Shown here: positions 2,736-24,457 of the stretch, one piece after another
Position numbering within the stretch: the first letter of the stretch is position 1
How the letters are laid out: each line of letters opens with the position of its first letter
Virus record (IMG/VR): IMGVR_UViG_3300035698_005595
Span: 1 to 24,583 of that record
Source of the DNA: a virus
Strand: one strand, 5' to 3'
Length of the DNA stretch: 24,583 bases
Program-made: the position numbers and the translations under genes
Notes under the pieces: model-generated
Database searches by the model: none
The model's input: the letters and a program-made list of their open reading frames with translations, nothing else
Told to the model about the DNA's origin: nothing

Positions 2736-3790
2736 AGTATTGCACTAAATGCTTAATGCCAGAAACTCGTCCTAGGATTACCTTTAACGAGAAAGGGGTA
2801 TGTAATGCGTGTCAGCATGCAGAAGCAAAGGGTGCATCGATAGACTGGAATGCCCGCTGGAGCTCACTAGAGGCTCTCTGCGAGAGATTTAGGGGAAAAG
2901 GGTATTGGGACGTGTTAGTCCCTTGTTCAGGCGGTAAAGACGGTTCATATGTAGCTTGGAAATTAAAGCATGATTTAGGAATGAATCCACTTTGTGTTAC
3001 ATTAATTCCACAACTACAAACAGAGATAGGGAAACAGAACTTAGAAAACTTTAAAAATTCAGGCTTTGACCATATAACAGTATCGCCTAATCCAGAAGTT
3101 TACAGAAAATTAGCAATTAAAGGGCTAAAAGAACAGGGAAGACCAAAGATGCCTTTCGTTATAGGGATAACTACAACTACCCTACAGATAGCAAAGAACT
3201 TTAATATACCATTTGTGGTATATGGAGAAGAAGGAGAGAAGGAATATGGGGGGGCAGATGTGAAAGCCGACAAGATTAGTCGGGATTACCTAATGGACTA
3301 TTACTATTCTGGTGAATATCCAGAGGAAATGAAAGACTTGAAGTGGTGGACACTACCAGATTTAGAGGGATTATACCCAATTCATTGGTCAAATTTTGAA
3401 TATTGGGACCCAATTGAGCATAAAGAGCTCGCAATAGAGAAATGTGGCTTACAGACTATTGACAAATCAATAGGAACGTTTACTAATTATGCTCAACTAG
3501 ACGATATTTTACAAGATTTGCATGCTTATTTTATGTTTTTGAAGTTTGGCTTTGGCAGAGCAACGTCAGATTCAAGCATAGAGATAAGGGAAGGAAGAAT
3601 GGAAAGGGAAATAGGGCTTACCTTCGTTAAAAAGTATGATGGAGCCTTTCCAACAAAATATTTAGATAATTACTTAGAATACTTCGACTTGACAGAAGAA
3701 GAATTCTGGGGGATAATAGATAAATTCGCTAATAAAGATATATTAAAAAAGGTAAATAATCATTGGACACTAATAAATGAAGCCCATTAA
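2732..3790 (+). CDS. N-acetyl sugar amidotransferase (WbpG/PseA-like)
   Basis: 352 residues. Members of this PP-loop ATPase family convert an N-acetyl group on a sugar to an acetamidino group, as in WbpG of Pseudomonas O-antigen and PseA of Campylobacter flagellin glycans. Seen: the N-terminal metal-binding pairs CTKC (4-7) and CNAC (24-27), and the ATP-binding loop SGGKDGSY at 66-73. The length is only slightly below the family norm. It begins the first carbohydrate block, with a 4-base overlap upstream and 14 bases downstream with a radical SAM gene. WbpG works with HisH/HisF-like ammonia-supplying partners; none is seen in this window. The likely substrate here is the nonulosonic acid made by genes further down; this is inference. 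Confidence 0.88.
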   Translation: MKYCTKCLMPETRPRITFNEKGVCNACQHAEAKGASIDWNARWSSLEALCERFRGKGYWDVLVPCSGGKDGSYVAWKLKHDLGMNPLCVTLIPQLQTEIGKQNLENFKNSGFDHITVSPNPEVYRKLAIKGLKEQGRPKMPFVIGITTTTLQIAKNFNIPFVVYGEEGEKEYGGADVKADKISRDYLMDYYYSGEYPEEMKDLKWWTLPDLEGLYPIHWSNFEYWDPIEHKELAIEKCGLQTIDKSIGTFTNYAQLDDILQDLHAYFMFLKFGFGRATSDSSIEIREGRMEREIGLTFVKKYDGAFPTKYLDNYLEYFDLTEEEFWGIIDKFANKDILKKVNNHWTLINEAH

Positions 3791-4628
3791 AGACATTAAA
3801 CTAATACAGATTGAAGTTACGAACGCCTGTATCAACCAATGTGCTAACTGCACAAGGTTTGTGGGACACCACAAGACACCTTTCTTTATGAATTTAGCCA
3901 CAATATCTAAGGCTATTGACAGTTTAGAAGGTTTTCCTGGTAATATAGGCTTAATGGGGGGAGAACCAACGCTTCATCCTAAATTTAAAGAGATATGTGA
4001 GTTGTTCCAAATGAAGATACCAGATAAACGAAGGAGAGAATTCTGGACATCTGGATATAAGTGGGAAGAATATAAAGATATAATACACGAAACGTTTGAC
4101 GAAGACCTAATTTCATTTAATGACCACTCAAGTGCTGATGGAAAACACCAGCCAATGTTAGTAGCGATAGACGAAATTTTAGATGATAAAGAGGAAATGT
4201 GGAATATTATAGATAAATGCTGGGTTCAAGATAGATGGTGTGCATCAATTACTCCCAAAGGAGCTTTCTTTTGTGAAGTAGCCGCTGCTATGGACCATAT
4301 GTTTGACGGTCCAGGGGGTTGGAAAGTAGAAAAAGACTGGTGGAAAAGAACCCCAGAAGATATGATGGACCAAGTTTCTAGGTATTGTGATAAATGTGGA
4401 GCTACTGTTCCAATAGGAGAAACAAGTGATAACGCAACATTTGATATAATATCACCAAAGAACGTTCAAAGATTAAAAGAATTAAAATCACCAAAGGTGA
4501 TGAAAGGAGATTTCGCTGTTTATGGTAGAAGTTGGACAGCAGACGAAATAAAAAAGAAACAAAAAGAGAAGTGGAATCCACAAAATTATAGAACATTTGT
4601 AGGACATGACCCGAAAGATGGAAAATAA
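3777..4628 (+). CDS. radical SAM protein
   Basis: 283 residues. The CINQCANC motif (residues 18-25, CX3CX2C) is the iron-sulfur cluster site of radical SAM enzymes, and GLMGGEPTLHP a little downstream is the usual GGEP SAM-contact region. Further Cys residues in CW, RWCAS, FFCEV and CDKC in the C-terminal half could hold an auxiliary cluster, as in SPASM-like proteins. The substrate is unknown. It sits between a sugar amidotransferase and a glycosyltransferase with overlaps on both sides, so a sugar- or glycan-modifying role is the simplest guess. A peptide-modifying role cannot be excluded. Confidence 0.82.
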   Translation: MKPIKDIKLIQIEVTNACINQCANCTRFVGHHKTPFFMNLATISKAIDSLEGFPGNIGLMGGEPTLHPKFKEICELFQMKIPDKRRREFWTSGYKWEEYKDIIHETFDEDLISFNDHSSADGKHQPMLVAIDEILDDKEEMWNIIDKCWVQDRWCASITPKGAFFCEVAAAMDHMFDGPGGWKVEKDWWKRTPEDMMDQVSRYCDKCGATVPIGETSDNATFDIISPKNVQRLKELKSPKVMKGDFAVYGRSWTADEIKKKQKEKWNPQNYRTFVGHDPKDGK

Positions 4629-5292
4629 TCCATTAATAACAGTAAGAATTCCTACTAAGAATAGGGGAAAGCTTTTAATAGAAAGGGCAGTAACTTCGGT
4701 TTTAGCCCAAACATACAAGAATTTTGAATTAGTTATAGTTGGAGATAACTGTACAGATGATACAGAACAGCTTTTAAAGGAACTAAATGATAAAAGAATA
4801 AGGTTTTACAATCTCCCACCAAGGGGGAAAGTAGAACAACAGCTTTTAAAAGACCCAGAGATTAGATGGTGTATGGGCCCAGTCAGACCCACGAATAAAG
4901 CTAATGAATTAGCCAAGGGGGAATGGATAGCACATATAGACGATGACGACACATGGACACCAGACCATTTAGAAGTATCTCTAAGATTTGCACAAAAGGG
5001 CAACTACGAATTCGTTTGTGCAGATTACATAGCAGAAAGATACGGAGAAAGAAAGGTAGTATCTTGTGGAGGACAGACATGGCTGTACAGAACAAGGCTT
5101 AGAAGATTTAAATACCACGAAGACTGCTATAAGAAGAAGTGGAACAGAGTTAGTGATATGGACGTTTATGACAGAATGAAAAAGGGAGGTGTGAGAATGG
5201 GACATTTAAAGAAAATAACAGCATTCGTGCTACCAAGACCAGGCGAAAAAACAATAGGATTAGAGCAATATAAATTATATAAAAAAACATGA
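4618..5292 (+). CDS. family 2 glycosyltransferase (GT-A fold)
   Basis: 224 residues from the ATG at 4618; an in-frame ATG at 4606 would add four residues, and both lie inside the preceding gene. The N-terminus PLITVRIPTKNRG and the VLAQTYKNFELVIVGDNCTDDT stretch are textbook GT2. GEWIAHIDDDDTW supplies the DxD-type metal and nucleotide-sugar site. The chain is short for GT2, with little beyond the catalytic domain and no membrane segment, so it is probably soluble. It may transfer a sugar made by the flanking genes; donor and acceptor are unknown. The stop overlaps the next ATG by 4 bases. Confidence 0.88.
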   Translation: MENNPLITVRIPTKNRGKLLIERAVTSVLAQTYKNFELVIVGDNCTDDTEQLLKELNDKRIRFYNLPPRGKVEQQLLKDPEIRWCMGPVRPTNKANELAKGEWIAHIDDDDTWTPDHLEVSLRFAQKGNYEFVCADYIAERYGERKVVSCGGQTWLYRTRLRRFKYHEDCYKKKWNRVSDMDVYDRMKKGGVRMGHLKKITAFVLPRPGEKTIGLEQYKLYKKT

Positions 5293-5828
5293 CAGCATTC
5301 AACAGGTTTCTTAATGAAACATTTGACAAAGGATTAGTAGGGGCAGAAATAGGGGTAAGAGATGGAGCACACGCTCTTCAATTATTAGCTTCTAACAATA
5401 TGGAAAAACTTTATTTAGTTGACTCATTTTTACCATATCAAGATGCTACGGTTAGAGCTTACAATGAACAAGACCAAAAGTCAGAATATCAAAAATTGAA
5501 GAAGAACATGAAGCCTCATAAAAAGAAAACCGAGATTATGAAGATAAGCTCGAAAGAGGCAATGGGAGTATTCAAAGAAAATGGGATAAAACTTGATTTC
5601 GTTTATATAGATGCTAATCACGCATACGAGAATATTAAAGAAGATTTAAAATGGTGGGAATTTGTTAAAGTAGGAGGAGTTATGGGAGGACATGACTATA
5701 CTAAATCACATGGATGTGGAGGAGTAATATTAGCAGTTGATGAATTTGTTAAAGAGGAAAAAGTAGAATTATTTACAGAAATAAGTAGGGGAACAGTAGA
5801 GTGGGCTATTATTAAAACAAAAAAATGA
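5289..5828 (+). CDS. class I SAM-dependent methyltransferase
   Basis: 179 residues. GLVGAEIGVRDGAHA (about 15-29) is motif I for SAM binding, LYLVDSF follows as the acidic strand-2 position, and LDFVYIDANHAYENIKEDLKWW with GGVMGGHDY is the signature of the Methyltransf_24/TylF-like group. Relatives methylate hydroxyls of sugars and small molecules. Overlaps of 4 bases on both sides tie it to the glycosyltransferase and the nonulosonate enzyme, so O-methylation of the glycan is a fair inference. The exact target is not shown. Confidence 0.85.
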   Translation: MTAFNRFLNETFDKGLVGAEIGVRDGAHALQLLASNNMEKLYLVDSFLPYQDATVRAYNEQDQKSEYQKLKKNMKPHKKKTEIMKISSKEAMGVFKENGIKLDFVYIDANHAYENIKEDLKWWEFVKVGGVMGGHDYTKSHGCGGVILAVDEFVKEEKVELFTEISRGTVEWAIIKTKK

Positions 5829-7084
5829 AAATCTTAGCTATTGTTCCAGCTAGGGGCGGTTCTAAAAGATTACCTAAAAAGAACGTAAAGTTATTGGCGG
5901 GCAAACCGTTAATCTATTATGTTTTACAAGCAGCCAAAAAAAGCAAGCTAATAAGTAGGGTAGTTGTTTCAACAGAGGACAAAGAGATTGCGACAATAGC
6001 GGGAAAATATGATGTAGGAGTTATTAAGAGACCAAAAGAATTAGCACAAGATAGGTCATTAACCATAGACGTTATCTTCCACACATTAAAAGTATTAGCC
6101 AAAAGAGGATACAGACCAGACGTAGTATTGTGTTTACAACCAACGTCCCCATTACAGACACCAGAAGATATTGACAAAGCTATACAAATGTTTCTTGATA
6201 ATGATAATAAGTCAGTTATTAGCTCACATAACGATATAGCAAATGGGGCAATATATGTTTCAACCCCAAAAATATTAAAGGAAACAAAGAGTTTTTATAC
6301 AGGAGATGTATTAAACTATAATATGCCATACGAAAGAAGTGTAGATATAAATACAATAGCAGACTTCCAATTTGCCGAAATGATATTTAAAAAAAAACAT
6401 AGTTTCATAATCGCAGAGGCAGGAATCAATCACAACGGAGAATATCGGTTAGCAGAAAGACTGGTTGATGCAGCAGTAGAAGCAGGGGCAGACGCTGTTA
6501 AATTTCAAACATTTAAAGGGCTAGAAAGAGTAAAAGAATATGGATTAAAGAAAATGGAATTTAGGAAATTGAAAGAGTATTGTGATAAGAAAGGGATTAT
6601 GTTCCTTACAACAGCTCACACATTCAATATGATAGACTTCGTGAATACATTAGTCCCAATACATAAGATAGCAAGCCCATTTTTAACAGATAAGGATTTT
6701 GTATTAAGAGTAGCCTCTAAGGACAAACCAATTTTATTAAGTGTAGGAAGCACATTCCACAACGATGGAATGGCAACAGAAGAAGAAATAGCAGAAACGT
6801 TAAGCTGGATACCAACAGCAGACGTTACGCTATTACATTGTGTTAGCCACTATCCACTAATAGACGGAAAAGAGGAAAGAATAAAAGAGTTAGGTCAATT
6901 TTTGAAAGTAGTGGGATTGTCGGACCACACTAAAAATATTAAAGTTCAACCATACCCAGTTATTGAAAAACACCTTATGCTAGACGAGAAGTGTATTGAT
7001 GCACCAGTTTCCCTTAACCCAGAGGAGTTTAAACAAATGGTTCAATATATAAGAGAAAATGAAAATATATTTAGCATCGTTTAA
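5825..7084 (+). CDS. fused CMP-nonulosonate cytidylyltransferase and nonulosonate synthase (NeuA-NeuB / LegF-LegI type)
   Basis: 419 residues with two domains. Residues 1-190 match CMP-sialate synthetase: VPARGGSKRLPKKN (8-20), LQPTSPL (104-110), NGAIY (140-144) and the DIN...ADF metal and substrate region (174-181). Residues 193-419 match the NeuB barrel: IAEAGINHNGE (196-206), DAVKFQTFK, HCVSHYP (338-344), SDHT (366-369) and EKH (381-383); His338 and His368 correspond to metal ligands in NeuB. Known chemistry is condensation of PEP with a mannosamine-type sugar, then CMP activation. Both halves are shortened: the first lacks the usual segment before NGAIY, the second lacks the C-terminal SAF (antifreeze-like) domain, and the usual GPDH region reads IDAP. 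It overlaps the methyltransferase by 4 bases and the epimerase by 26. Confidence 0.9.
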   Translation: MKILAIVPARGGSKRLPKKNVKLLAGKPLIYYVLQAAKKSKLISRVVVSTEDKEIATIAGKYDVGVIKRPKELAQDRSLTIDVIFHTLKVLAKRGYRPDVVLCLQPTSPLQTPEDIDKAIQMFLDNDNKSVISSHNDIANGAIYVSTPKILKETKSFYTGDVLNYNMPYERSVDINTIADFQFAEMIFKKKHSFIIAEAGINHNGEYRLAERLVDAAVEAGADAVKFQTFKGLERVKEYGLKKMEFRKLKEYCDKKGIMFLTTAHTFNMIDFVNTLVPIHKIASPFLTDKDFVLRVASKDKPILLSVGSTFHNDGMATEEEIAETLSWIPTADVTLLHCVSHYPLIDGKEERIKELGQFLKVVGLSDHTKNIKVQPYPVIEKHLMLDEKCIDAPVSLNPEEFKQMVQYIRENENIFSIV

Positions 7085-7841
7085 TAGGGCGTCAAACGGG
7101 GCAATAAGCAAATTAAAAGAGAAATTAGATACCACAGAGAACTACGAAGAGGCTGATTACATATTAGCTTGTGGCGACAGAAAAGAAACCTTTGACTTTG
7201 TGTTAGAGAGATTCCGAGAGAATAGAAAGATTATACACTTATGGGCAGGAGAGATAAGTCAAGGAACACACGACGAAGTTTATAGACACGCTATGACCAT
7301 TATGAGTGTAATGCAGTTATGTACTAATGACACAGCTAAGGATAGAGTGGAGAGATTATGTGCCGCTATTGACAAAACACCTAATTGTGTTGTTGTCGGT
7401 AATATTATGTTAGACAATTTAGAGGTAGATGAGAGTGCTGTTCCAGCAGGAGATTACGATTTGATTTTATACAACCCACCAACCAATTTAAGTCCAGACG
7501 GAATACAAGCAGAAATAGACCAAATAGTTAAAATGGCAACTGGTAAATTTATATGGGTATCTCCTAACGGAGATTCAGGTAGCAATCTAGTTAATCAATA
7601 CGTTACGATTAAGAACCTTCCAAGACCAATATTCCTAGGATTAATGAAAAGATGTAAGAGATTTATTAGCAATTCATCTTCTATATTTTATGAAGCACAA
7701 TTTTTATTAGAACCAGAACAGATAGTTCAAATAGGGGCCAGAAATGAAAGTCGAGAGAGCGGTAAAGCAGATATGGAAATTAATAATGCGAGCGACAATG
7801 TCAAAAAAGCGTTGGACAAATTGGCAACAGCCACAGATTGA
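7059..7841 (+). CDS. reduced NeuC/LegG-like hydrolysing nucleotide-sugar 2-epimerase
   Basis: 260 residues against about 370-380 for cellular NeuC. The core is clear: ACGDRKET (37-44), IIHLWAGEISQGTHDEVYRHA (58-78; NeuC has IHGGE followed by a DE..RHAITK pattern), VVVGNIMLDNL (111-121), and near the end FISNSSSIFYEA (202-213), the NSSS nucleotide-binding loop with its Glu. Family enzymes epimerise C2 of UDP-GlcNAc or UDP-diNAc-bacillosamine and release the nucleotide, giving the substrate for NeuB-type synthases. The N-terminal Rossmann half is collapsed to about 40 residues, so the usual Arg-containing N-terminal motif is missing. Activity needs proof. It overlaps genes on both sides. Confidence 0.8.
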   Translation: MKIYLASFNRASNGAISKLKEKLDTTENYEEADYILACGDRKETFDFVLERFRENRKIIHLWAGEISQGTHDEVYRHAMTIMSVMQLCTNDTAKDRVERLCAAIDKTPNCVVVGNIMLDNLEVDESAVPAGDYDLILYNPPTNLSPDGIQAEIDQIVKMATGKFIWVSPNGDSGSNLVNQYVTIKNLPRPIFLGLMKRCKRFISNSSSIFYEAQFLLEPEQIVQIGARNESRESGKADMEINNASDNVKKALDKLATATD

Positions 7842-8181
7842 AGACGGAGTTCCTACTAAATGGGGATGGGTAGTAAAACACTCAGATAAATTTCACTTAG
7901 GAAAAGATACAGATATAGGATTTGGAACTTATATTAATGCTAAGGCAGGCGTTTTCATAGAAGACGACGTTCAGATAGGAAGCCACGGTTCAATATATTC
8001 AGTGAATACAATTGACGAGACACACGGAATAATTCGCCTTAAAAAGAATTGCAAGATAGGTTCTCACGTAATAATAATGCCAGGCGTTACGATTGGGGAA
8101 AACTCAATAGTAGGGGCATTTAGTTTAGTAAAAAATGATGTGCCAGCTAACAAAACAGTTTATGGAAATCCAGTTATATAA
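7798..8181 (+). CDS. hexapeptide-repeat acetyltransferase
   Basis: 127 residues from the ATG at 7798; in-frame ATGs at 7786 and 7744 would extend further into the preceding gene, without added family-like sequence. From about residue 30 the chain shows left-handed beta-helix repeats: LGKDTDIGFGTYINA, VFIEDDVQIGSHGSI, CKIGSHVIIMPGVTIGENSIVGAFSLV, closing with the usual GNPV. Such trimeric enzymes N- or O-acetylate nucleotide sugars. Its place beside the aminotransferase suits acetylation of the C4 amine, as by PglD or LegH. Unlike PglD it lacks the N-terminal nucleotide-sugar-binding domain. A His for catalysis may be His53 in IGSH or His85. Confidence 0.8.
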   Translation: MSKKRWTNWQQPQIEDGVPTKWGWVVKHSDKFHLGKDTDIGFGTYINAKAGVFIEDDVQIGSHGSIYSVNTIDETHGIIRLKKNCKIGSHVIIMPGVTIGENSIVGAFSLVKNDVPANKTVYGNPVI

Positions 8182-13067: not shown

Positions 13068-14144
13068 TTGAACATACTTTACATGCTAGATAACCCATAC
13101 GCTTTTTCTAGCGGATGCTGGTTATACAGAAACCATCTCCCTGGGTTAGCGTTAAGGGCTAAAGGGCACATGGTCAAAAATATAATTCTTGGAAGACAAG
13201 TGCAAAATGAATTTTTAGAATATCCTGACGTAGTAGTCTTTTCAAGAACATATCCTATTGACCCGATAGTAGCAGTCAGACAATTTAAAAGGGCAGGAAA
13301 AAAGGTTGTTTATGAGATTGACGATAATTTATGGGATGTTAATCCAGACAATCCGTCTGTTTCTATTTCAAAAGATAAAAGAGTTCAATATGAGAAACTA
13401 ATGAGAGAAGTAGACCTCATAACAACTACCACTCCAGAGCTAGCTAAACTATTAAAGAAATTTAATAAAAACGTTGTTGTTTGTCCAAACTCAGTTGATT
13501 ATGATTTGTTTAAAGAGAAAGAAGGCAAAAACGATGTTTTAAGGATTGGATATACTGGAGCCTCATCTCATTGGAAAGACCTAACACTTATTACAGATGT
13601 CTTAATTGAATTAAAAAAGAAATATGACTTTACGTTCCATGTTCAAGGAATGACAGGAACACCAATAGAATCTGAGATGTATGGTTACCAACAAATGTTA
13701 AAATATGGATTGAAACCAGAACAAAATGATTACTTGAAGACAGCACTTGATTGGTTTGAGAATATGAGAAAGTTAGGATTTACACATACACCATTTTATC
13801 CACCAGAATTATTCCCATCAGTATTGAGAAGATGTAACATTGACATTGGACTAGCTCCTTTAATGGATAACAAGTTTAATCATTCTAAAAGTTGTGTTAA
13901 GTTTTATGAATACGCAGCCACTGGAACAGTAACTTTAGCCTCAGATGTATTACCATATAATACAGAGGTTGGATATTGTGCCAAGAACACATTTAAAGAT
14001 TGGTATGAAAAACTAGAGAAATTAATTGTAGATGAGAAATTTAGAAAGAAATTACTAGCCAAACAACAAAAGTGGGTAAAAGACAATAGAGATTTAAGCA
14101 AAGTTGTAGATATATGGGAAAAAGCATTTGACCCAAAGAAATGA
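13068..14144 (+). CDS. GT-B glycosyltransferase (GT4/GT1-like)
   Basis: 358 residues using TTG at 13068; the TTG start is chosen because the first strand NILYMLDNP would be cut by the next ATG (13083). The N-terminal domain has SGCWLYRNHLPGLALRAKGH. The C-terminal domain has VLRIGYTGASSHWKDL, then the donor-binding run IDIGLAPLMDNKFNHSKSCVK followed by FYEYAATGTVTLASD, where Glu in the KFYEY segment sits at the usual nucleotide-sugar contact. The final helix crosses back as in GT-B enzymes. It probably adds a nucleotide-linked sugar to a glycan or protein; donor and acceptor are unknown. It overlaps the next gene by 4 bases. Confidence 0.85.
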   Translation: MNILYMLDNPYAFSSGCWLYRNHLPGLALRAKGHMVKNIILGRQVQNEFLEYPDVVVFSRTYPIDPIVAVRQFKRAGKKVVYEIDDNLWDVNPDNPSVSISKDKRVQYEKLMREVDLITTTTPELAKLLKKFNKNVVVCPNSVDYDLFKEKEGKNDVLRIGYTGASSHWKDLTLITDVLIELKKKYDFTFHVQGMTGTPIESEMYGYQQMLKYGLKPEQNDYLKTALDWFENMRKLGFTHTPFYPPELFPSVLRRCNIDIGLAPLMDNKFNHSKSCVKFYEYAATGTVTLASDVLPYNTEVGYCAKNTFKDWYEKLEKLIVDEKFRKKLLAKQQKWVKDNRDLSKVVDIWEKAFDPKK

Positions 14145-14578
14145 GAAAGCTACCCAAATTAAAAGGAGAGATTAAATTGGATTTGGGCTGTGCTGATAAT
14201 GTATTAAAAGGATTTATAGGAGTTGATTTCAGAGACTATGGACAACAGATTATATGGGATGTTAGAGAAGGACTTCCTTTCGCAGACAACTCTGTAAAGG
14301 AAATCTATAGCTGTCATATGCTAGAACATTTAAACGAAGATGAAAACGAAGAATTCTTTAGAGAACTCTATCGGGTATTGGAACTAGGAGCATTATTTGT
14401 ATGCCGAGTTCCTCACTCAAACGCCCCTACAGCTCACTACATAGGGCACAAGTCCTTATGGAACGAACTTAGGGCAGAAGTATGGAGTAGAGACCCAAGT
14501 GGATTTCTAGGAAACTTCGCAGTATTAAGAAACGAAAGAATAGGAGACGAATTATTCTTTACACTTAAAAAGATATGA
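14141..14578 (+). CDS. small class I SAM-dependent methyltransferase
   Basis: 145 residues. KLDLGCADNVLKGFIGVDF gives motif I and the acidic residue of strand 2; GLPFADNSVKEIYSCHMLEHL and FFRELYRVLELGALFVCRVPH are the usual Methyltransf_11 motifs. It is a minimal catalytic domain, common beside phage glycosyltransferases. It overlaps neighbours on both sides by 4 bases (ATGA). A glycan or sugar O-methylation is the likely role. The C-terminal part beyond residue 110 is poorly conserved and may define the substrate. Confidence 0.85.
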   Translation: MRKLPKLKGEIKLDLGCADNVLKGFIGVDFRDYGQQIIWDVREGLPFADNSVKEIYSCHMLEHLNEDENEEFFRELYRVLELGALFVCRVPHSNAPTAHYIGHKSLWNELRAEVWSRDPSGFLGNFAVLRNERIGDELFFTLKKI

Positions 14579-15453
14579 AAATATATTTGCAGGACCATAA
14601 TAATATACTTACAGACGTAGCTAAAGAGCTCAATGTAACAAGAGACTTTGAAGAAGCAGACAAAGTTGTTTTGTGGCAAGACGTTATTGGATTTGGCAGA
14701 GGCATAGCACAATTAGCCAGAAAAAAGGGAAAGCCAGTAATTGTGGTTCAACACGGAGCGAATAGTCATATAGACTATGGGCCACCAAATCATTACAAAT
14801 TATTAGCAGATAAATATTGCGTATGGGGAACAAGAAGTAGAGACGCACTATTAAGCTATGGAATTCCAGCTAGTAAAATAGTTATTACAGGAAGCACTAT
14901 ATTCAGTCATATTAAACCAAAGGTTAAACATAATAAGATTAATGTAGTTTTCCGTCCAGCACATTGGGATATTAGAATATTAGAAGAGAATAAAATTGTT
15001 GCCGAAGCATTAAGAAATATAGATTATGGACTTACTATCACTACTAAGATTATTGAAACAATAGACCCAACAGGGCTTGACAATGTAGTTTCTTCTCATA
15101 GAGATAAACCAGGTCATTTAGAAGCTTGTGTGGATATATTAAGCACAGCAGACCTAGTTGTAGGAATAGCCGAAGACGGAACTTTTGAAATGTTAGCTTA
15201 TGCTATGGATGTTCCAGTTGTTATACCTAATGTTTGGAAACAAAAAGTCTTTTTAGGAAAAGCTACGCCAGAAATGAACTATTCAATAGCCTGTAATATA
15301 ACAGATATGAGACACCTTGAATCAGTTATCAAAGAAAATTTAGATAATCCAGATAAATTGAAAGCGGAAAGAAGGTCAGTAGCAGAAGAATGGGCGGGAA
15401 TACATATTGAGGACCCCTTACAAAAAATATTAAAAGTTATCCACGATGCGTAA
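14575..15453 (+). CDS. TagB/TagF-like or epimerase-like GT-B protein
   Basis: 292 residues. The segment from about 54 to 110 (PVIVVQHGANSHIDYGPP, LLADKYCVWGTRSRDALLSYG, then IPASKIVITGSTIF) is typical of CDP-glycerol glycerophosphotransferase-like and related GT-B proteins. VVFRPAHWD and, near 200, LVVGIAEDGTFEMLAYAMDVPVV supply the C-terminal donor site. As in the NeuC-like gene at 7059, the N-terminus is MKIYL and a short chain with (Y/F)EEAD replaces most of a Rossmann domain. It may transfer a sugar or polyol phosphate to a glycan, or be a nucleotide-sugar epimerase. Which one is not settled. Confidence 0.7.
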   Translation: MKIYLQDHNNILTDVAKELNVTRDFEEADKVVLWQDVIGFGRGIAQLARKKGKPVIVVQHGANSHIDYGPPNHYKLLADKYCVWGTRSRDALLSYGIPASKIVITGSTIFSHIKPKVKHNKINVVFRPAHWDIRILEENKIVAEALRNIDYGLTITTKIIETIDPTGLDNVVSSHRDKPGHLEACVDILSTADLVVGIAEDGTFEMLAYAMDVPVVIPNVWKQKVFLGKATPEMNYSIACNITDMRHLESVIKENLDNPDKLKAERRSVAEEWAGIHIEDPLQKILKVIHDA

Positions 15454-16342
15454 AAATTCATTTAAAAAAGTATATAAGGACCTAGCATTTCAACAAGCTC
15501 AGAAGAAAGAGTTGGTACCATTTCCTTTTTTAGCGGATATAGAATTAACAAATCATTGTAATTTGAAGTGTTTATTCTGCCCAGGAGCCTTAGCTATGAC
15601 TAGGGAAAAGGGATTTATGGATGAAGCAATATTTAAAACAGTAGTAAATGAGTGTGCGGAACACAATACACCAATAAGGTTTATTAGATGGGGGGAACCA
15701 TTCCTACATCCAAACATAATAAACTTTATGAAATATATTAAGAAAAAGAAATTATTATTACACATAACTAACAACGGTTTGGCAATAAAGGAGAAGCACA
15801 TGAAAGCATTGGTAGACCTAAAAGTAGATTCTATTATCTTTTCATTCCAAGGAGCCACTAAAGACGAATACCAGATAATGAGAGATAACAAAAGATATGA
15901 CGAGTTAGTTAAAAACATTAAAAAGTTAATTAAAATAAGGGGAAAGAAGTCTAAACCATACATTAAAATTACATCTACAATGTTAGATGATACTCCAGAA
16001 GATATAGAAAAGTTCAGGAAACTCTGGGAGGGTATTGTAGACGAAGTGGGTATCGGCAAAACAATACCTTTCTGGAATCCAAAGAGATTGATAAAACTTT
16101 ATGGGGCGAAATATAGACCATGCTCAGAAGTATATCAAAAAACAAGCGTAGATTGGGACGGAAAGATTTCAGCTTGTTGCGGGGACTATGACAATCTTTT
16201 AACAATAGGAGAAATACAGAATACAACCCTAAAAGAAGCTTGGAACGGAGAAAAACTAAACGCTATTAGAACATTATTAGACAATAACATGCATAGATGC
16301 CTCACAAAGTGTAGCACATGCACATTTGCCCATGAATTTTAA
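15446..16342 (+). CDS. radical SAM/SPASM protein
   Basis: 298 residues. CNLKCLFC (38-45) binds the catalytic iron-sulfur cluster. The C-terminal SPASM region shows VDWDGKISACCGDYDNLLTIG, a Trp-containing LKEAWNG, then C.TKC..C (CLTKCSTC) for auxiliary clusters. Family members modify peptides, sugars or other small molecules. It lies between a GT-B gene and the 4,6-dehydratase gene and overlaps both (8 and 11 bases), so a sugar or glycan substrate is plausible. SPASM proteins of this type are also common in bacterial O-antigen loci. The substrate cannot be read from the sequence. Confidence 0.87.
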   Translation: MRKNSFKKVYKDLAFQQAQKKELVPFPFLADIELTNHCNLKCLFCPGALAMTREKGFMDEAIFKTVVNECAEHNTPIRFIRWGEPFLHPNIINFMKYIKKKKLLLHITNNGLAIKEKHMKALVDLKVDSIIFSFQGATKDEYQIMRDNKRYDELVKNIKKLIKIRGKKSKPYIKITSTMLDDTPEDIEKFRKLWEGIVDEVGIGKTIPFWNPKRLIKLYGAKYRPCSEVYQKTSVDWDGKISACCGDYDNLLTIGEIQNTTLKEAWNGEKLNAIRTLLDNNMHRCLTKCSTCTFAHEF

Positions 16343-17261
16343 AATTTTAATTACAGGTGCATCTGGGAGCATTGGCTCTGAATTAGCAAGACAGATTTAC
16401 GCTTCAAAGCCAAAGCAATTAATTATCATCGACCAAGATGAAACAGGAATATTTAATATGTCAGAGGATTTGCCAGGGACAATAGGACTTGTAGCGGATG
16501 TAAGAAACCGAGAAAGAATACAAGAGATATTTAAAAAGTATAAACCTGATATAGTTTTCCACGCCGCAGCATATAAACACGTTCCTTTAATGGAAAGACA
16601 GATAGGCGAAGCAGTTAGAAACAACATATTCGGAACTCTTAATGTAGCAGAATCTGCCGTAAAGAACGGAGCAAAGAAATTTGTATTTGTGTCTACTGAC
16701 AAAGCAGTAAATCCCACATCTGTTATGGGAGCAACTAAGAGAATCGGAGAAATGATATGTCAAAACCTTAATGGAAAGACTAAATTTATGTCAGTTAGGT
16801 TTGGAAACGTATTTGACAGCAGGGGAAGCGTTATCCCAGCTTTTAAAAAGCAGATAGAAAGAGGCGGACCAGTAATAGTTACCCACCCAGAGATGAGAAG
16901 ATACTTTATGTCAATAAAAGACGCCGCAGAATTAGTAATTCAAGCATCAAAGATTGGCAAAGGCGGAGAAATATTCATATTAGATATGGGAAAACAGATT
17001 AAGATACTGGATTTAGCAAAACAAATGATATTACAGTCAGGTAAAGACATTCACATTATGATAAGCGAACCACGACCAGGAGAAAAACTATTTGAAGAAC
17101 TATTAATAGGAGATGAAAGTTCTACCAAACATAAAAATATATTCATTGTCAAGCCCTCTCAAGTCGATGGAGAAGAACTTGATAAAAGTTTAATAAAATT
17201 AAAAGAGGGCGGAAATGTTAAAAAAGTATTTAATAAATTAATACCCACATATGAAAAATAA
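16332..17261 (+). CDS. UDP-GlcNAc-type 4,6-dehydratase (PglF/LegB/CapD family)
   Basis: 309 residues from the ATG at 16332, inside the end of the preceding gene; a TTG at 16326 adds two residues. Seen: NAD-binding GASGSIGSE (9-17), FHAAAYKHVPLME, STDKAVNPTSVMGATKR and PRPGEKLFEELL. The catalytic Tyr of the SDR fold is Met132 with Lys136 in MGATK, the mark of the PglF/WbpM/CapD branch that keeps C5 configuration. PseB has YGATK instead. Cellular PglF and WbpM carry N-terminal membrane segments; this protein is only the soluble domain. It makes the 4-keto-6-deoxy sugar for the aminotransferase at 8162. That gene is 7 kb away, with head genes in between. Confidence 0.92.
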   Translation: MNFKILITGASGSIGSELARQIYASKPKQLIIIDQDETGIFNMSEDLPGTIGLVADVRNRERIQEIFKKYKPDIVFHAAAYKHVPLMERQIGEAVRNNIFGTLNVAESAVKNGAKKFVFVSTDKAVNPTSVMGATKRIGEMICQNLNGKTKFMSVRFGNVFDSRGSVIPAFKKQIERGGPVIVTHPEMRRYFMSIKDAAELVIQASKIGKGGEIFILDMGKQIKILDLAKQMILQSGKDIHIMISEPRPGEKLFEELLIGDESSTKHKNIFIVKPSQVDGEELDKSLIKLKEGGNVKKVFNKLIPTYEK

Positions 17262-18291
17262 CAAAACAAAAATCTGCATTACGGGCCACGCAGGTTTTAT
17301 AGGTTCACATTTTATAGAAGCAATATTAAAAGAAACAGATTGGGACGTAGTTGGGATAGATTGCCTAAACTACTCAGGTAATTTAAACAGGTTATCAGAT
17401 ATAGATAATTGGGAAGAAGAAGGGCATAGAGTTAAATTCGTTTATCACGACTTTAGAGCCGAACTAGGAGAGTTTGTAATGGACGAGATAGGTGAAGTTG
17501 ACTACATACTCCACATGGGAGCTGAAACGCACGTAGACAGAAGCATAGTGGACCCTACGCCATTCGTAATGACAAATGTGGTAGGAACAATGAACATGTT
17601 AAACTTCGCTAGAACATTACCTAATCTTAAAAAGTTCATATACTTCTCAACAGATGAGGTCTACGGACCTACAATTGATGATGTAGATTTTCCAGAAGAC
17701 GGCAGACATGCACCAGGTAACCCATATTCTGCTAGTAAGGCAGGAGCTGAGGATTTATGTCTCGCATACGCTAATACATACAAAATGCCTATTATTATTA
17801 CAAACACAATGAATGTGGTGTCGGAAAGACAGCATCCAGAGAAATTCTTTCCACTTGTAATTGGTAGAGTATTAAAGGGAGAAGAAATTTCAATCCACGC
17901 CAATCCAGAGCTTACTAAGGCTGGTTCAAGATTTTATCTCCACGCAAGAAATGCTTGGGCGGCGATTAGATTTATCCTAGAAAAAACAAATGAATTCTTA
18001 GAAGTTAGAAGTCCATCACAAGGAAGATTTAATATAGTCGGAGATAGAGAATTAGATAACTTAGAGTTTGCTCAATTCATTGCTGGAGTTATGGGAAAAC
18101 CATTAAAATATAAACTTGTGAATTTTCACGAGAGTAGACCTGGACATGACCTTCGCTATGGATTAACTGGAAACAAACTAAAAGACCTTGGGTTTGAATT
18201 TCCCAAGACATTTGAAGAGTCTATAACCAAAGCAATTAAATGGTATATGAAACCAGAGAATCAACGATGGTTAGATTTAAAAGATAAATAG
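17251..18291 (+). CDS. dTDP-glucose 4,6-dehydratase-like enzyme (RmlB-like)
   Basis: 346 residues. Extended SDR with GHAGFIGSH (12-20), HMGAETHVDRSI, the catalytic STDEVYG (Thr134, Asp135, Glu136) and YSASK (Tyr159, Lys163). Near the end HESRPGHDLRYGL matches the RPGHD signature of dTDP-glucose 4,6-dehydratases. Length is normal for RmlB. The product would be a 4-keto-6-deoxyhexose, a precursor for rhamnose-like or amino-deoxy sugars. The remaining Rml enzymes are not in this window, so the host may supply them or the substrate may differ. It overlaps the preceding gene by 11 bases and closes the second carbohydrate block. Confidence 0.88.
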   Translation: MKNNKTKICITGHAGFIGSHFIEAILKETDWDVVGIDCLNYSGNLNRLSDIDNWEEEGHRVKFVYHDFRAELGEFVMDEIGEVDYILHMGAETHVDRSIVDPTPFVMTNVVGTMNMLNFARTLPNLKKFIYFSTDEVYGPTIDDVDFPEDGRHAPGNPYSASKAGAEDLCLAYANTYKMPIIITNTMNVVSERQHPEKFFPLVIGRVLKGEEISIHANPELTKAGSRFYLHARNAWAAIRFILEKTNEFLEVRSPSQGRFNIVGDRELDNLEFAQFIAGVMGKPLKYKLVNFHESRPGHDLRYGLTGNKLKDLGFEFPKTFEESITKAIKWYMKPENQRWLDLKDK

Positions 18292-19032: not shown

Positions 19033-21114
19033 ATGATAGAAGCAAAGGATTTCATAAAGTTAAAGAAGCAAATAGACGAGCTTCTGAAGAAAATTGAAAA
19101 AGAATACCTTGACAAAGGAGAAAACATCTCATCTAATAAGTTTAATATACTCTTAAAAGAAATTAAGAAAAGACTTGTAGAGAAAAGGGGTGTAAATTTC
19201 AAGGACTATGAAGAGTTGGAAAGACTTACTAATGTAAGAGTAGACCAAATACAAGAAGACAACCTTATAGAGTTCGGACAAGACATGCAAAGCAATCTTG
19301 TTTCTATAAGACAAGAAACAGAGAGGAAAATTCAATCTCTTTTAGAAGAAATAAACCTTAATAAGAAAACTAAGGTTACAGAAGCAGAGGTTATAGCAAT
19401 AACCAAAGCACTAATACCAGAAATGCCAGAAATACATCCGCCAACAACAGCGGAGGTTCTTGCCGTCCACGATGATTTTGACCACGTTAAGATTTTAAGA
19501 GATTTAAATGAGTTTGAAAAACGACAAGACATACTTCAAAGCACGGTTGAAAAAGAATTAGGAACTAATGGAAATATTAGTTCTGATACCAGTATGAAGA
19601 TTGACAAGCTTAAGGATGATTTTAACAAACAACTTAAAAAAATTAATAAAGATGTAGAGTCCCGTTTTTCTGCTCCTTTATTTAAAAAAGGATTAAATGG
19701 GAAAATAAATAAGCAAGTTCAAGAAGCCATATTAGAACCTCTAAGAAGGTTGGCTATTGGTTTAAATGATAAAATAGATGCCGTTAGCGGTACAGTTGGT
19801 GCCCAAGGACCACAAGGAACTCAAGGGTTTCAGGGACCACAAGGAACAGTTGGAGCACAAGGCACTCAAGGATATCAAGGCACACAGGGTATAATCGGAA
19901 CAACTGGTAGCCAAGGAACACAGGGTTATCAAGGTCCTCAAGGTTCACAAGGTTTCCAAGGACCTCAGGGTCCCCAAGGAAGTCAGGGCTTCCACGGCCC
20001 ACAAGGTATAACCCCAGTTGGTGTAACCTTTTATTGGCACGATGTCGCTGATGGAGTAATAGCAGACTATGAAAAATGGAGAAGAACAGTACCAGTTGGA
20101 AGCGAAGCCACTGTAACTGCTACGGGAAAAAACACAGACGGTGAAATGCCTCTTGTGGCTGTTTATCAATGGGTTTCAAGCAGTGGTTCTCCTGGAATAC
20201 AAACTATTCCTGCTGGAGAATGGTACGCTCATATGTATGCTAGTGTAGATAATGCTTCAGAAGACTCAACATTAAAGTTTTACCTGTATAAGAGAAATCT
20301 TGCTGGGGCGGAAACAGAATTATTCAACTACACTTCAGACCCAATTAATAATACTTCTGTAGGATTGGTGAGTATGATATATGTTCAAGCATCTGATATA
20401 TCTATATTAGACACAGATAGATTAATTATTAAGGTTTATGCTCAAACAACAAGAACAGCAGATGTAACCTTTACTTTTTACTATGATGGAGTTACTCACG
20501 CTTCTCACGTTCATACTCCAATAACTGAAGGTGCTAAAGGAGCACAAGGATTTCAGGGACCTCAAGGTACGCAGGGTCCACAGGGCTCGCAAGGAAGCCA
20601 AGGTTTTCAGGGTACCCAAGGCACTCAAGGATATCAAGGCACACAGGGTCCACAAGGAGATAATAGTGGAGGACCTCAAGGTGAAGTTGGACCGCAAGGA
20701 AGCCAAGGTTTTCAAGGTCCCCAAGGTATAATTGGTACTCAGGGTACTCAAGGATTTCAAGGACCTCAGGGAATTATAGGGACTCAAGGAACCCAAGGAT
20801 TCCAGGGACCTCAGGGGATAATTGGAACTGCTGGAGAAAAAGGAGATACTGGAGATACTGGAGCACAGGGAGCTCAGGGTTACCAAGGACCTCAAGGAAC
20901 GCAAGGTTATCAAGGTTTGTTGGGAACGCAGGGAACACAAGGGTATCAGGGAACTCAAGGACCTCAAGGAGAAGGAATAGGTGGAGTTCAGTTTGCTTCT
21001 GACCACGGAACACCTGCAACAGATGAAATAATTAACGTAGCTTATGGCACAGCCGCCGCTCCCGCAGCGAATACTACCACCATAGGTTCACTTTATATTA
21101 CGTATACTGCTTAG
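19033..21114 (+). CDS. collagen-like fibre protein
   Basis: 693 residues from the ATG at 19033; a TTG at 18997 would add 12 residues inside the preceding gene. Layout: residues 1-252 charged and coiled-coil-rich; 253-327 a collagen-like run of 25 Gly-X-Y triplets; 328-499 a beta-rich globular domain (begins PVGVTFYWHD); 500-648 a second collagen-like run of 49 triplets with one two-residue break; 649-693 a C-terminal tip. Triplets are dominated by GTQ, GPQ, GFQ, GYQ and GSQ. Such rods occur in phage tail and head fibres as trimers. Thr- and Ser-bearing triplets could be glycosylated, as in Bacillus BclA; that is inference. Its last 22 codons match a fragment lying beyond the next gene. Confidence 0.85.
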   Translation: MIEAKDFIKLKKQIDELLKKIEKEYLDKGENISSNKFNILLKEIKKRLVEKRGVNFKDYEELERLTNVRVDQIQEDNLIEFGQDMQSNLVSIRQETERKIQSLLEEINLNKKTKVTEAEVIAITKALIPEMPEIHPPTTAEVLAVHDDFDHVKILRDLNEFEKRQDILQSTVEKELGTNGNISSDTSMKIDKLKDDFNKQLKKINKDVESRFSAPLFKKGLNGKINKQVQEAILEPLRRLAIGLNDKIDAVSGTVGAQGPQGTQGFQGPQGTVGAQGTQGYQGTQGIIGTTGSQGTQGYQGPQGSQGFQGPQGPQGSQGFHGPQGITPVGVTFYWHDVADGVIADYEKWRRTVPVGSEATVTATGKNTDGEMPLVAVYQWVSSSGSPGIQTIPAGEWYAHMYASVDNASEDSTLKFYLYKRNLAGAETELFNYTSDPINNTSVGLVSMIYVQASDISILDTDRLIIKVYAQTTRTADVTFTFYYDGVTHASHVHTPITEGAKGAQGFQGPQGTQGPQGSQGSQGFQGTQGTQGYQGTQGPQGDNSGGPQGEVGPQGSQGFQGPQGIIGTQGTQGFQGPQGIIGTQGTQGFQGPQGIIGTAGEKGDTGDTGAQGAQGYQGPQGTQGYQGLLGTQGTQGYQGTQGPQGEGIGGVQFASDHGTPATDEIINVAYGTAAAPAANTTTIGSLYITYTA
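19789..20013 (+). repeat. collagen-like Gly-X-Y tract 1
   Basis: Twenty-five unbroken Gly-X-Y triplets encoded by purine-rich 9-base-like units around CAAGG. GTQ, GPQ, GFQ and GYQ dominate, with a GII-GTT step in the middle that may act as a flexible or folding point. Confidence 0.9.
20530..20976 (+). repeat. collagen-like Gly-X-Y tract 2
   Basis: Forty-nine triplets with a single break (GDN-SG-GPQ). The 15-residue unit GIIGTQGTQGFQGPQ recurs in tandem, with three GII steps in all, pointing to growth by slippage or unequal recombination. A GEKGDTGDTG stretch resembles the charged triplets that stabilise bacterial collagens. Confidence 0.9.
21046..21114 (+). repeat. active fibre 3' end, copy 1 of a duplicated tip
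   Basis: Encodes the 22-residue end starting GTAAAPAANTTTIG, then the stop TAG. It matches 21627-21692 at 19 of 22 residues but only 45 of 66 bases. Sixteen of the 19 shared residues use a different synonymous codon, so the two copies diverged as translated sequences before being brought together. Confidence 0.85.
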
Positions 21115-21129
21115 TATTTGTTAAAAATT

Positions 21130-21624
21130 ATGCCTAAAATCTATAAAAGAAATTGTAATAATTGTGGTGAATATTATGAAGGAGAGGGAATGTTTTTCTG
21201 TAGTCAAAATTGCTCTCAAGAAGGTCAAAAACGCGTAGGATTGTTTGAAAAAGGACAAAACATAGGGAATCAATTTGCCAAAGGGAATAAACCAAATAAA
21301 ACGTCTTTTAAAAAGGGATATGATGTAACTAAACATTGGAATTGGAAAGGTGGAATTACCCCTTTAATGCATCGTATTAGACAATGTTTTGAATATAGGC
21401 AATGGCGTTCAGATGTATTTACAAGAGATGACTTTATTTGTCAAAATTGTTTAATCAAAGGTGGAAATTTAGAGGCTCACCACATTAAAGAATTCGCAAA
21501 GATAATACACGAAAATAATATAAAAACTTTAGATAGGGCGCTAAATTGTGAAGAATTATGGAATATTAATAACGGACAAACACTATGTTTAAAATGTCAC
21601 AACGCAACAAAACAAAAAAAATAG
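21130..21624 (+). CDS. HNH homing-type endonuclease
   Basis: 164 residues from the ATG at 21130; a TTG at 21118 would add four. An N-terminal treble-clef-like zinc site (C9, C12, C24, C28) is followed by a basic, NUMOD-like DNA-contact stretch (FEKGQNIGNQFAKGNKPNK, then TSFKKG). The HNH domain has CQNC (104-107), LEAHH (His117-His118), Asn147-Asn148 and CLKCHN (153-158). Such enzymes cut a specific target and spread by repair. It stands alone between the fibre gene and a remnant of a fibre 3' end, with short gaps instead of the usual overlaps, so it looks like an insertion. No intron or intein is needed to explain it. Confidence 0.88.
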   Translation: MPKIYKRNCNNCGEYYEGEGMFFCSQNCSQEGQKRVGLFEKGQNIGNQFAKGNKPNKTSFKKGYDVTKHWNWKGGITPLMHRIRQCFEYRQWRSDVFTRDDFICQNCLIKGGNLEAHHIKEFAKIIHENNIKTLDRALNCEELWNINNGQTLCLKCHNATKQKK

Positions 21625-21698
21625 TCGGAACTGGAGCAGCACCAGCTGCAAATACCACAACCATTGGAGCAATATACATCACATATACCGCAGAATGA
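21625..21698 (+). pseudogene. displaced 3' end of the ancestral fibre gene
   Basis: Read from 21627, the frame gives GTGAAPAANTTTIGAIYITY and then TAE before TGA. That is the fibre tip again, now without a start codon or gene body. It is in a different frame from the HNH gene. Its TGA (21696-21698) overlaps the next ATG in ATGA, the same coupling seen at many gene junctions here. The simplest reading is that the fibre gene once ran straight into the gene at 21695. The HNH gene then arrived together with a substitute fibre 3' end and left this piece behind. Confidence 0.82.
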
Positions 21699-23206
21699 AA
21701 ATAAAAGATTATATAAGTAAATTGTTTAAGAAACCTAAAAAGAAAAGTGGCATTTCTTTTCCTAGTAAAAAATTAACTAGCAAAGAAATTGTAAGTAGAG
21801 TAAAATCTGGTGATTATTCTGTATTAGGTAAAGAATTCGAAAAGACTATAAAAAGAATTTTGCCTTCAAAGATTTTTGGTAAACGAGTTACAAAATTACA
21901 ATCTCTAGGAATACATTTTGGTGTTCTTGGAATAGGATTATTGAGTAGTTTTTGGACTGGCAATCCTTTGTTATTTTTAATTGGACTAAGTATTGCTTTT
22001 GGAAGTGAATATGTCTTTAATGATTCTGCAAGTAGTTATATTTATGATGTTACAGCAATAGACTCAACTACTATCGCAATAGTATATCGAGATTCTGGCA
22101 ATTCAAATCAAGGAACAGTTATCATAGGAGTAATATCTGGAACACCAGCAGACGACATAACTTATGGTAGTGAATATGTTTTCAATTCTGGAAATGGTAT
22201 ATCAAGTCCACATATAGATAAATTAACATCAACTACCTTTGTTGTTGTGTTTACTGATTTTGAAAATACTAATTATTATCCAACAGCAATAATTGGTACT
22301 ATAGCTAATGATGACGAAATATCTTATGGAAATAAATATGTTCCTGCTAATACCACAGGAGTTTATTGTGCTATTTCCACCTTAGATTCAACTCATATTG
22401 CTATGTCATATAGAGATTCTGCTGATGGTAATAAGGTAAAATCAGCTATTGGAGTAGTTTCAAGTGGAAATCAAATAGCATTTGGTAGTATCTATACAGC
22501 TCTTGCTGCTACTACTTATGAACTTGAATCAACAGCCTTAGACTCAACTCATTTCGTAGTAGCATACTATGACGCAGATGATGGGAAAGATGGAAAGGCA
22601 GTTATCGGAGTAGTTTCGGCTGGAGATGAAATAGCTTTTGGTAGTGTATATGAATATTATAACGGTGTTTCTAATTTACCAAGTCTTTGCACAATAGATT
22701 CAACACATTTTGCAGTTACATATTTAGACCAAGTAAAAATTGCAACTGTAGCATCTGATGATGAAATAAGTTATGGAAGTGAATACGTCTTTTTTACTGA
22801 TGCTAGAAATGCAGTAATATCACTTTTAGACTCAACACATATTGTGGTTTCTTATAGACAAGATACTGAAAATGATGATGGATATTCCATAGTTGGAATA
22901 ATATCAGATACAGACGTGGTTACTTTTGGAGATTCATTTGCTTTTAATGCTGCTGACACAATAAAAATAGCATCTGCTCCACTTAGTTCAACTTCTTTTG
23001 CTGTTGCTTATGAAGACCAAGGAGATTCAAATAAAGGAAAAGCTATTGTAGGAATTTATGAAGAACCAACAACTCTTCCAATAGAAATCAACATAGCAGA
23101 TACTTGGATAGAAGCAGATAAAATTCAAATCAACATAGGAGACGTTTGGAAAGATGTTACAAAAGTACAAATTAACGTAGGAGATGTTTGGAAAGACGTC
23201 TTCTAA
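21695..23206 (+). CDS. membrane-anchored seven-repeat propeller-like protein
   Basis: 503 residues. Residues 1-69 are basic (KLFKKPKKK at 9-17), and about 71-100 form one or two hydrophobic segments (FGVLGIGLLSS, LLFLIGLSIAF). From 101 to about 461 there are seven repeats of 45-54 residues. Each opens with (A/S/T)(F/Y)G(S/N)xY, continues with LDSTHxVVxYRD and ends with GKAxIGxVSxxDEI. Seven repeats of this size suggest a beta-propeller. The last 42 residues are three 14-residue units of the type KIQINIGDVWKDVT. No enzyme motif is seen. Its place after the fibre suggests a virion adhesin, or a protein displayed on the host envelope. The start overlaps the old fibre stop. Confidence 0.65.
   Translation: MKIKDYISKLFKKPKKKSGISFPSKKLTSKEIVSRVKSGDYSVLGKEFEKTIKRILPSKIFGKRVTKLQSLGIHFGVLGIGLLSSFWTGNPLLFLIGLSIAFGSEYVFNDSASSYIYDVTAIDSTTIAIVYRDSGNSNQGTVIIGVISGTPADDITYGSEYVFNSGNGISSPHIDKLTSTTFVVVFTDFENTNYYPTAIIGTIANDDEISYGNKYVPANTTGVYCAISTLDSTHIAMSYRDSADGNKVKSAIGVVSSGNQIAFGSIYTALAATTYELESTALDSTHFVVAYYDADDGKDGKAVIGVVSAGDEIAFGSVYEYYNGVSNLPSLCTIDSTHFAVTYLDQVKIATVASDDEISYGSEYVFFTDARNAVISLLDSTHIVVSYRQDTENDDGYSIVGIISDTDVVTFGDSFAFNAADTIKIASAPLSSTSFAVAYEDQGDSNKGKAIVGIYEEPTTLPIEINIADTWIEADKIQINIGDVWKDVTKVQINVGDVWKDVF
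23078..23203 (+). repeat. three tandem 14-residue repeats at the propeller C-terminus
   Basis: Three 42-base units encode (P/K)(I/V)(E/Q)IN(I/V)(A/G)D(T/V)W(I/K)(E/D) and two more residues. The last two are nearly identical; the first is more diverged. Short INVGDVWK-type repeats are also seen in other phage tail proteins, where they probably form a small beta structure. Confidence 0.75.
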
Positions 23207-23248: not shown

Positions 23249-24457
23249 ATGCCTAAAATAAGTGTTATTATTCCGACTCATAATGGGTCAAAATACTTAC
23301 TAGAAGCAATAAAATCAGTTCAAAAACAAACATATACTGATTGGGAAATAATATTGGTTCTTAACAATGGCGGAATATCTCACGGACTAGAAAAGACAGA
23401 CAAACGAATTAAAGTATTTACAGCTGAGAACAAAGACAAATCTGTGGGAAGAATGAAAAGGTTTGCGTGCGAAAAAGCCAAAGGAGAGATTTATGTTGAG
23501 CTAGATAGCGATGACCTGTTAATGCCAACAGCATTAGAGGAAGTAGTTAAAGCATTTGAAGACCCAGAAATATCACAAGTTTATTCAGATTTTGCGGAAT
23601 TCTTTTATGACCACGCAAAAGAGTCAGATTGGAAACCAAATCTGTATGGAACGGGTTGGGGCTGGGAATACAATGATGGGGAATATAAAGGACACCCTAT
23701 AAAGATATGTAGATGCTTTGAACCAGTCCCAAGTTCGTTCACTATGATATGGTTCGCACCAAATCACATTAGAGCTTGGAGAGCAACTCATTATTGGGAA
23801 GTAGGTGGACACGATGCAGAGCTCCCAGCGGTAGATGACTTTGATTTAGAACTTAGACTATATATGTATGGAAAGTTCAAGAGAATACCAAAATGCTTAT
23901 ACCTTTATAGGATAACTGGAGAGAATACTTGGATTAAAAAGAACGCCTTTATACAAAGAGTGGCAAAAGAAAAAGCGGAAGAATATCACTATAAGATAAT
24001 TTATAGATGGTCTGAATTACAAGGTTGGAAGAACTTAAAAATACAAGAAATAAAAGGAGACTTAAATAAAAAGTGGGATATACCAGACAACTCAATAGGT
24101 GTTTTAAAAGCCTGGGACAGAATACATATAATGAATGACCCACAACACTTTATGAATGAGGCTTATAGGGTATTAGTACCTGGAGGTTGGTTACTAACCT
24201 CTACCCCAAGCACAGATGGAAGGGGGGCGTTTATGGACCCAAGAACTAAGAGTTATTGGAACGAGAATTCATTTGATTATTATACTAAACGCCAAGAAGC
24301 TCTAAAAATTAACAACAAAACAAGGTTTCAAGAAATTAAAAGAAAAACATACTTTCCAAATAAGTATTGTGAGGATAGAAATATCTCTTATGTAATGTTT
24401 GAGGGAATAGCATTAAAAGAAGGTATGCCTCGCTTACCTGGATGGAAAGGAATATAA
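23249..24457 (+). CDS. GT2 glycosyltransferase fused to a truncated methyltransferase domain
   Basis: 402 residues. Residues 1-230 are a GT2 domain: KISVIIPTHNGSKYLLEAI, VQKQTYTDWEIILVLNNGG and the metal site VELDSDDLLMP, with a WEVGGHD acceptor-side motif near 190. From about 255 the chain matches the second half of a class I methyltransferase (WDIPDNSIGVLKAWDRIHIM, FMNEAYRVLVPGGWLLTSTP) and a GAFMDP...WNENSFDYYT end. The Gly-rich SAM-binding motif I is missing; in its place is RWSELQGWKNLKI. So the second domain may no longer bind SAM, or may have become an accessory domain. The usual EH(L/I) pair is DRIHIM here. The role is glycan assembly; the acceptor is unknown. Confidence 0.82.
   Translation: MPKISVIIPTHNGSKYLLEAIKSVQKQTYTDWEIILVLNNGGISHGLEKTDKRIKVFTAENKDKSVGRMKRFACEKAKGEIYVELDSDDLLMPTALEEVVKAFEDPEISQVYSDFAEFFYDHAKESDWKPNLYGTGWGWEYNDGEYKGHPIKICRCFEPVPSSFTMIWFAPNHIRAWRATHYWEVGGHDAELPAVDDFDLELRLYMYGKFKRIPKCLYLYRITGENTWIKKNAFIQRVAKEKAEEYHYKIIYRWSELQGWKNLKIQEIKGDLNKKWDIPDNSIGVLKAWDRIHIMNDPQHFMNEAYRVLVPGGWLLTSTPSTDGRGAFMDPRTKSYWNENSFDYYTKRQEALKINNKTRFQEIKRKTYFPNKYCEDRNISYVMFEGIALKEGMPRLPGWKGI

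Follow-up and report, generated by a model that had tools for sequence, protein, structure and literature searches.

Mobile endonuclease genes that bring a replacement end for the gene they invade have been described in fungi. The WHO elements of Torulaspora and Lachancea yeasts, known from the FBA1 locus, combine an endonuclease gene with, upstream of it, a substitute for the 3' end of the host gene, and involve neither an intron nor protein splicing; the old 3' end is displaced downstream, where it has been proposed to provide a second homology (Coughlan et al. 2020, PMC7282813). Cleavage by the enzyme and resistance of the replaced allele have been shown experimentally for WHO (PMC7282813). 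The mORFs of fungal mitochondria, found in atp6 of Allomyces and in atp6, atp9, cox2 and nad3 of Glomus, consist of an endonuclease ORF and a foreign segment encoding the C terminus, which takes the place of the native segment and leaves it downstream, the two copies having high protein but low base identity (Beaudet et al. 2013, PMC3630166). Hybrid transcripts of mORFs have been detected by RT-PCR (PMC3630166).

Reviews and surveys of phages describe endonucleases that are intergenic, intron-borne or gene-splitting. The free-standing enzymes (seg and mob of T4, HNH genes of Skunavirus) resemble the element proposed here in being HNH or GIY-YIG genes adjacent to the sites they target, with intronless homing and co-conversion of the flanks, but they are described as intergenic or gene-splitting and not as carriers of a replacement gene end. 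We tested segF, segA, mobB, mobC and I-TevII of T4 for duplicated ends and found none; a match at T4 mobA was an overlap artefact, the 114-base gene being too short for the test. Neither the reviews and surveys nor our targeted searches, limited to open-licence literature, gave a case of end replacement in phages.

The window analysed, a virus record of 24.6 kb with terminase, portal and capsid genes, contains a locus that we consider likely to be an intronless two-part homing element, composed of an HNH gene and an upstream replacement 3' end for a tail-fibre gene; the cutting, the resistance and the route of repair are inferred. The features of the locus are as follows.

19033-21114, + strand: collagen-like tail-fibre gene, host gene of the putative element (Pfam Collagen, 2.3e-32; PHROG tail fiber families)
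21046-21114, + strand: active fibre tip of 22 codons and a stop, inferred to be imported from its foreign codon usage
21130-21624, + strand: HNH endonuclease gene, with ATG at 21130 and a possible alternative start at TTG 21118 (phrog_1271, 4.4e-10; invariant residues; HNH fold)
21624-21698, + strand: 24-codon fragment, putative remnant of the native fibre 3' end and probable right-hand homology arm (19/22 residues, 45/66 bases, native codons, ATGA junction)
21695-23206, + strand: gene that comes after the native fibre end and has INIGDVWK-type repeats at its own end (ORF; in L066, L079 and L080, single tips are followed by similar repeat-bearing genes)

The active fibre ends in GTAAAPAANTTTIGSLYITYTA and a stop (21046-21114; shared codons 21046-21111), and just past the intact HNH gene the remnant reads GTGAAPAANTTTIGAIYITYTAE and a stop (21627-21698; shared codons 21627-21692). 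The two copies are identical at 19 of 22 residues but at only 45 of 66 bases; 2, 1 and 18 of the differences fall at the first, second and third codon positions, respectively (18/21 at third positions). In a local protein alignment of the 900 bases upstream against the 900 bases downstream, the match scored 100, while shuffled sequences had a mean of 37.5 and a maximum of 55 (Gumbel P ~2e-8). When 21 random base changes were simulated, the mean residue identity fell to 9.8 of 22, and 19 was reached in none of 200,000 replicates; the residue changes are therefore too few for a remnant that drifted untranslated in place. The TGA of the remnant overlaps the ATG of the next gene at 21695, and five further gene junctions in the window share this four-base ATGA overlap (5289, 5825, 10944, 14141 and 14575). 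An earlier note on this DNA had described the duplicated tip with its mostly third-position differences and had called ATGA the standard junction of the operon, and both descriptions hold.

The gene between the copies encodes an HNH endonuclease, as judged by its domain, its conserved residues and its predicted fold, with cutting itself inferred. The protein matches phage HNH families (phrog_1271, 4.4e-10) and retains every residue that is invariant in 16 aligned relatives. The AlphaFold2 model is confident in the last half and unreliable in the first 62 residues; its best match among solved structures is the HNH nuclease of phage GVE2 (E 0.02, probability 1.00). No Rfam match indicative of a catalytic intron RNA was found in the window around the ORF, a search that unknown or very divergent introns would escape, though it did detect a group I intron in another contig (L147). 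An intein is not indicated either, as the HNH sequence is not in frame inside the fibre protein and the fibre stop (21112-21114) precedes the separate start of the HNH gene. With no intron RNA detected and with separate frames, the locus holds neither a recognisable intron nor an intein, in line with the earlier proposal that neither is needed.

Two sequence features of the window touch on the fibre and its surroundings. A short terminal module, DHG..TDQI.NV.YGTG..P.A.TTT.G.(L/I)(Y/F)..YTA (20990-21114), closes otherwise dissimilar fibre-like proteins in ~28 viral contigs (the window, L053, L065, L066 and L075-L098), and INIGDVWKxV repeats are frequent in the genes after the tip (21695-23206 of the window; L065, L066, L079 and L080). 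Elsewhere (2732-8181, 13068-18291 and 23249-24457), many ORFs resembling genes for sugar synthesis or transfer are interleaved with phage structural genes; they look like sialic-acid-type synthesis genes, nucleotide-sugar enzymes and glycosyltransferases, assigned by eye only except for a Glycos_transf_2 match of 23249-24457.

To distinguish the native from the imported end, we compared tips across phages. A broad tip-module pattern retrieved 26 viral stretches, and another scan retrieved three true relatives, two of them present in both sets; 25 contigs were readable beyond the tip. By inspection, all 25 have a single tip followed by other sequence, and none has an HNH gene or a second tip within 450 bases 3' of it. 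The earlier prediction that relatives without the HNH gene would carry one tip joined to the next gene thus came true, and the pattern named as its refutation, tandem tips without the endonuclease, was sought in these relatives and not seen. In L066, L079 and L080 the gene after the single tip has INIGDVWK-type repeats and resembles the window gene at 21695, and the end beside that gene therefore occupies the native position. A near relative of the window phage lacking the HNH gene was not found, and for that reason the point at which the import begins on its left side is only estimated.

Codon usage points the same way. The active tip has a codon adaptiveness of 0.46, a value below which just 0.4% of 22-codon stretches from the same phage fall (P=0.0025 in synonymous draws), whereas the remnant reaches 0.70 and is native-like (0.57 in synonymous draws). 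The fibre stretch just before the tip also has native-like codons. The agreement of codon usage and single-tip relatives supports the reading, already proposed in the earlier note, that the upstream tip was carried in as a replacement and that the remnant is the native end.

These data bear on a different history, in which the tip was duplicated in tandem long ago, the HNH gene was later inserted between the copies and nothing was imported. Such a duplication would account for two similar adjacent copies, but we regard it as very unlikely: tandem tips are absent in the 25 relatives, the copies differ in codon usage, and a dead copy would not retain 19 of 22 residues. Moreover, the copies are as distant from each other (68% of bases) as from the tips of unrelated phages (53-71%). 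The same low identity is relevant to whether the arrangement is an assembly chimera, a concern for a metagenome contig of an uncultured phage with no reads at hand. As the copies share too few bases for the usual collapse and the same anatomy recurs in independent contigs, we give this explanation almost no credence.

The remnant might also still be in use, as a silent spare tip, as a translation-coupling leader for the next gene or as part of an HNH fusion made by a -1 slip. A run of eight A at 21614-21621 directly precedes the HNH stop, and a -1 slip there would enter the remnant frame; in addition, an in-frame ATG at 21585, within the HNH gene, opens a 37-codon frame that passes through the remnant to the ATGA junction, and the remnants in two further contigs described below (L024 and L142) are fused in frame to the endonuclease. 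Against this, runs of at least eight A occur five times in the window, the fibre body is absent from the remnant, and a recent event would account for the state of the remnant without any use. We found no sign that the ATG at 21585 is used, although its presence means that the fragment is not start-less in the literal sense, as the earlier note had described it. Overall, continued use appears highly improbable, and we retain the reading of the remnant as the displaced native end.

To look for the arrangement elsewhere, we collected HNH relatives from viral and genome collections and tested 195 nonredundant ORFs for similarity between the sequence before and the sequence after each of them. Most showed no duplicated gene end. 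Besides the window, four recurrences were picked out on reading, affecting a portal gene (L024), an amidase gene (L179), a resolvase-like gene (L142) and an exonuclease gene (L157). In the firm cases, residues are retained while bases differ, beyond the neutral expectation (each P ~1e-4 or less).

In L024, the portal gene ends in TGRISPVELSIASNQ and the HNH protein in TGTISPVELSITSQQ, the old portal tail being fused in frame to the endonuclease; the tails share 12 of 15 residues and 28 of 45 bases. Two relatives of this case without the HNH gene (L213 and L214) have one tail and then the next gene. The codon usage of the upstream tail is odd (0.028) and that of the remnant is not (0.91), the same direction as in the window. 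The locus was missing from the 195-ORF screen because its fused tail had become part of the profile, and it was seen in other comparisons.

The second case, in a contig filed under Woesebacteria (L179), has the amidase end GHRNFSNTSCPGKNLYSWL before the HNH gene and GHRDFSSTSCPGRNVYNFI after it, with 12 of 21 aligned residues identical. The upstream end lies in a different frame from the rest of the gene: at 3540-3650 the amidase is frameshifted near an A run (near 3550), just before the replaced end, and the reality of this frameshift is uncertain. In L142, the endonuclease is of the GIY-YIG/NUMOD3 type and its gene terminates in DAMKIARGGQVLNP, which duplicates the end of the preceding gene (11/14 residues), with the remnant fused in frame. 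We take the preceding gene to be resolvase-like from its sequence alone, as it has no Pfam name. Both copies have unusual codons, and codon usage consequently leaves unresolved which end is native and which imported.

The exonuclease case (L157) is mirrored: the old 5' end of the exonuclease gene remains ahead of the HNH gene, and the new one comes after the HNH gene, with 11 of 15 residues shared. After the 5' remnant (4206-4300), another frame reads LDGLNIFI, similar to VDGLNNFL, and is perhaps left over from an additional, earlier insertion.

Searches among isolated phages for relatives of the affected genes gave one distant match for the L024 portal and none for the L142 resolvase-like gene. 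Taken singly, L024 and L142 are modest once 195 tests are corrected for (0.03 and 0.05), but position, frame and silent divergence add weight to both. Further 5' cases are probable in L187, in which a ParB-like 5' end is fused to the HNH gene (9/17 residues), and in L149, which involves a membrane segment (12/34 residues); both are weak and were kept apart, as was L257 (10/29 residues).

Other duplication matches were rejected. Those in L103 (two methylases), L146, L192 and L165 formed a set that was not adjacent, of low complexity or paralogous. The match in L112, a 7-kb viral contig with several HNH genes in tandem, arose from these genes, and the match in L147 from a group I intron (RF00028, 3490-3665) that adjoins an HNH gene in an apparent capsid gene, an ordinary intron-borne case.

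The recurrence also informs the strongest objection to an active role of the enzyme, namely that a foreign tip and a passenger HNH gene were joined by module shuffling, with the endonuclease uninvolved. In favour of this view, fibre ends are known to be swapped, and the tip module is common to otherwise different fibres of many phages. The same anatomy is nevertheless present in genes that do not encode fibres (portal, amidase, resolvase-like and exonuclease), always with the endonuclease between the copies, and the duplicate spans just the end past one point. Recombination without the endonuclease thus remains possible but unlikely. The presence of the arrangement in several other genes argues for a strategy and not an accident, and the insertion-with-repair strategy put forward in the earlier note is largely supported.

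A plausible course of events can be outlined for an element of this kind. In a mixed infection, the HNH enzyme would cut the fibre gene of the recipient close to where its tip begins, around the codons YGT, and the break would be repaired using the element-bearing genome as the source. Exchange on the left would take place within the fibre body and, on the right, within either the fragment of the old tip or the gene after it, giving a product with the order fibre body, new tip, HNH gene, old tip fragment and next gene. As the HNH gene would bring a replacement for the last 22 codons, the fibre gene would survive the invasion and its protein remain complete, and the recoded tip should escape further cutting. 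The old end would be pushed outward and kept as right-hand homology for the next transfer. Because it matches the sensitive target, the remnant is, in our analysis, probably a right-hand homology arm for homing and not mere debris, a point absent from the earlier note.

The proposed phage element has the anatomy of WHO elements and mORFs, whose mobility or resistance has been tested, and this likeness favours the homing reading. It works like WHO and yet is not WHO by descent, because its enzyme is an HNH endonuclease. The WHO enzyme is an intein-like LAGLIDADG protein with zinc fingers, acting in a eukaryotic nucleus, and the mORF enzymes, located in mitochondrial genes, are mostly LAGLIDADG with one GIY-YIG (PMC3630166); the window enzyme, which falls in the HNH family, does not share descent with these LAGLIDADG endonucleases. 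WHO has one main target gene with clustered, repeated insertions, whereas the phage cases involve several target genes and both gene ends, and the cleavage and resistance demonstrated for WHO are only inferred in phage. The strategy itself is therefore already known from yeast WHO and fungal mORFs, and the phage version, with its unrelated enzyme, is probably convergent. Its use in phages, which extends over several target genes, HNH as well as GIY-YIG enzymes and 3' as well as 5' ends, is apparently new, although priority is not certain, as the literature search covered open-licence papers only.

The window locus illustrates a way for a selfish endonuclease that has neither intron nor intein to invade a gene that is needed and yet leave it whole, and it suggests a concrete route by which homing endonucleases may exchange the ends of phage genes, among them the tips of tail fibres. 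A gene end that is duplicated beyond an endonuclease gene, with synonymous divergence between the copies, provides a simple signature for searches. On balance, we lean slightly towards phages holding a recurrent class of end-replacing homing elements, with HNH and GIY-YIG enzymes, in many genes and at the 3' or 5' end, in which the old end would serve as the homology arm of the next cycle. If true, such elements would drive small, directed exchanges of the ends of phage genes, fibre tips included.
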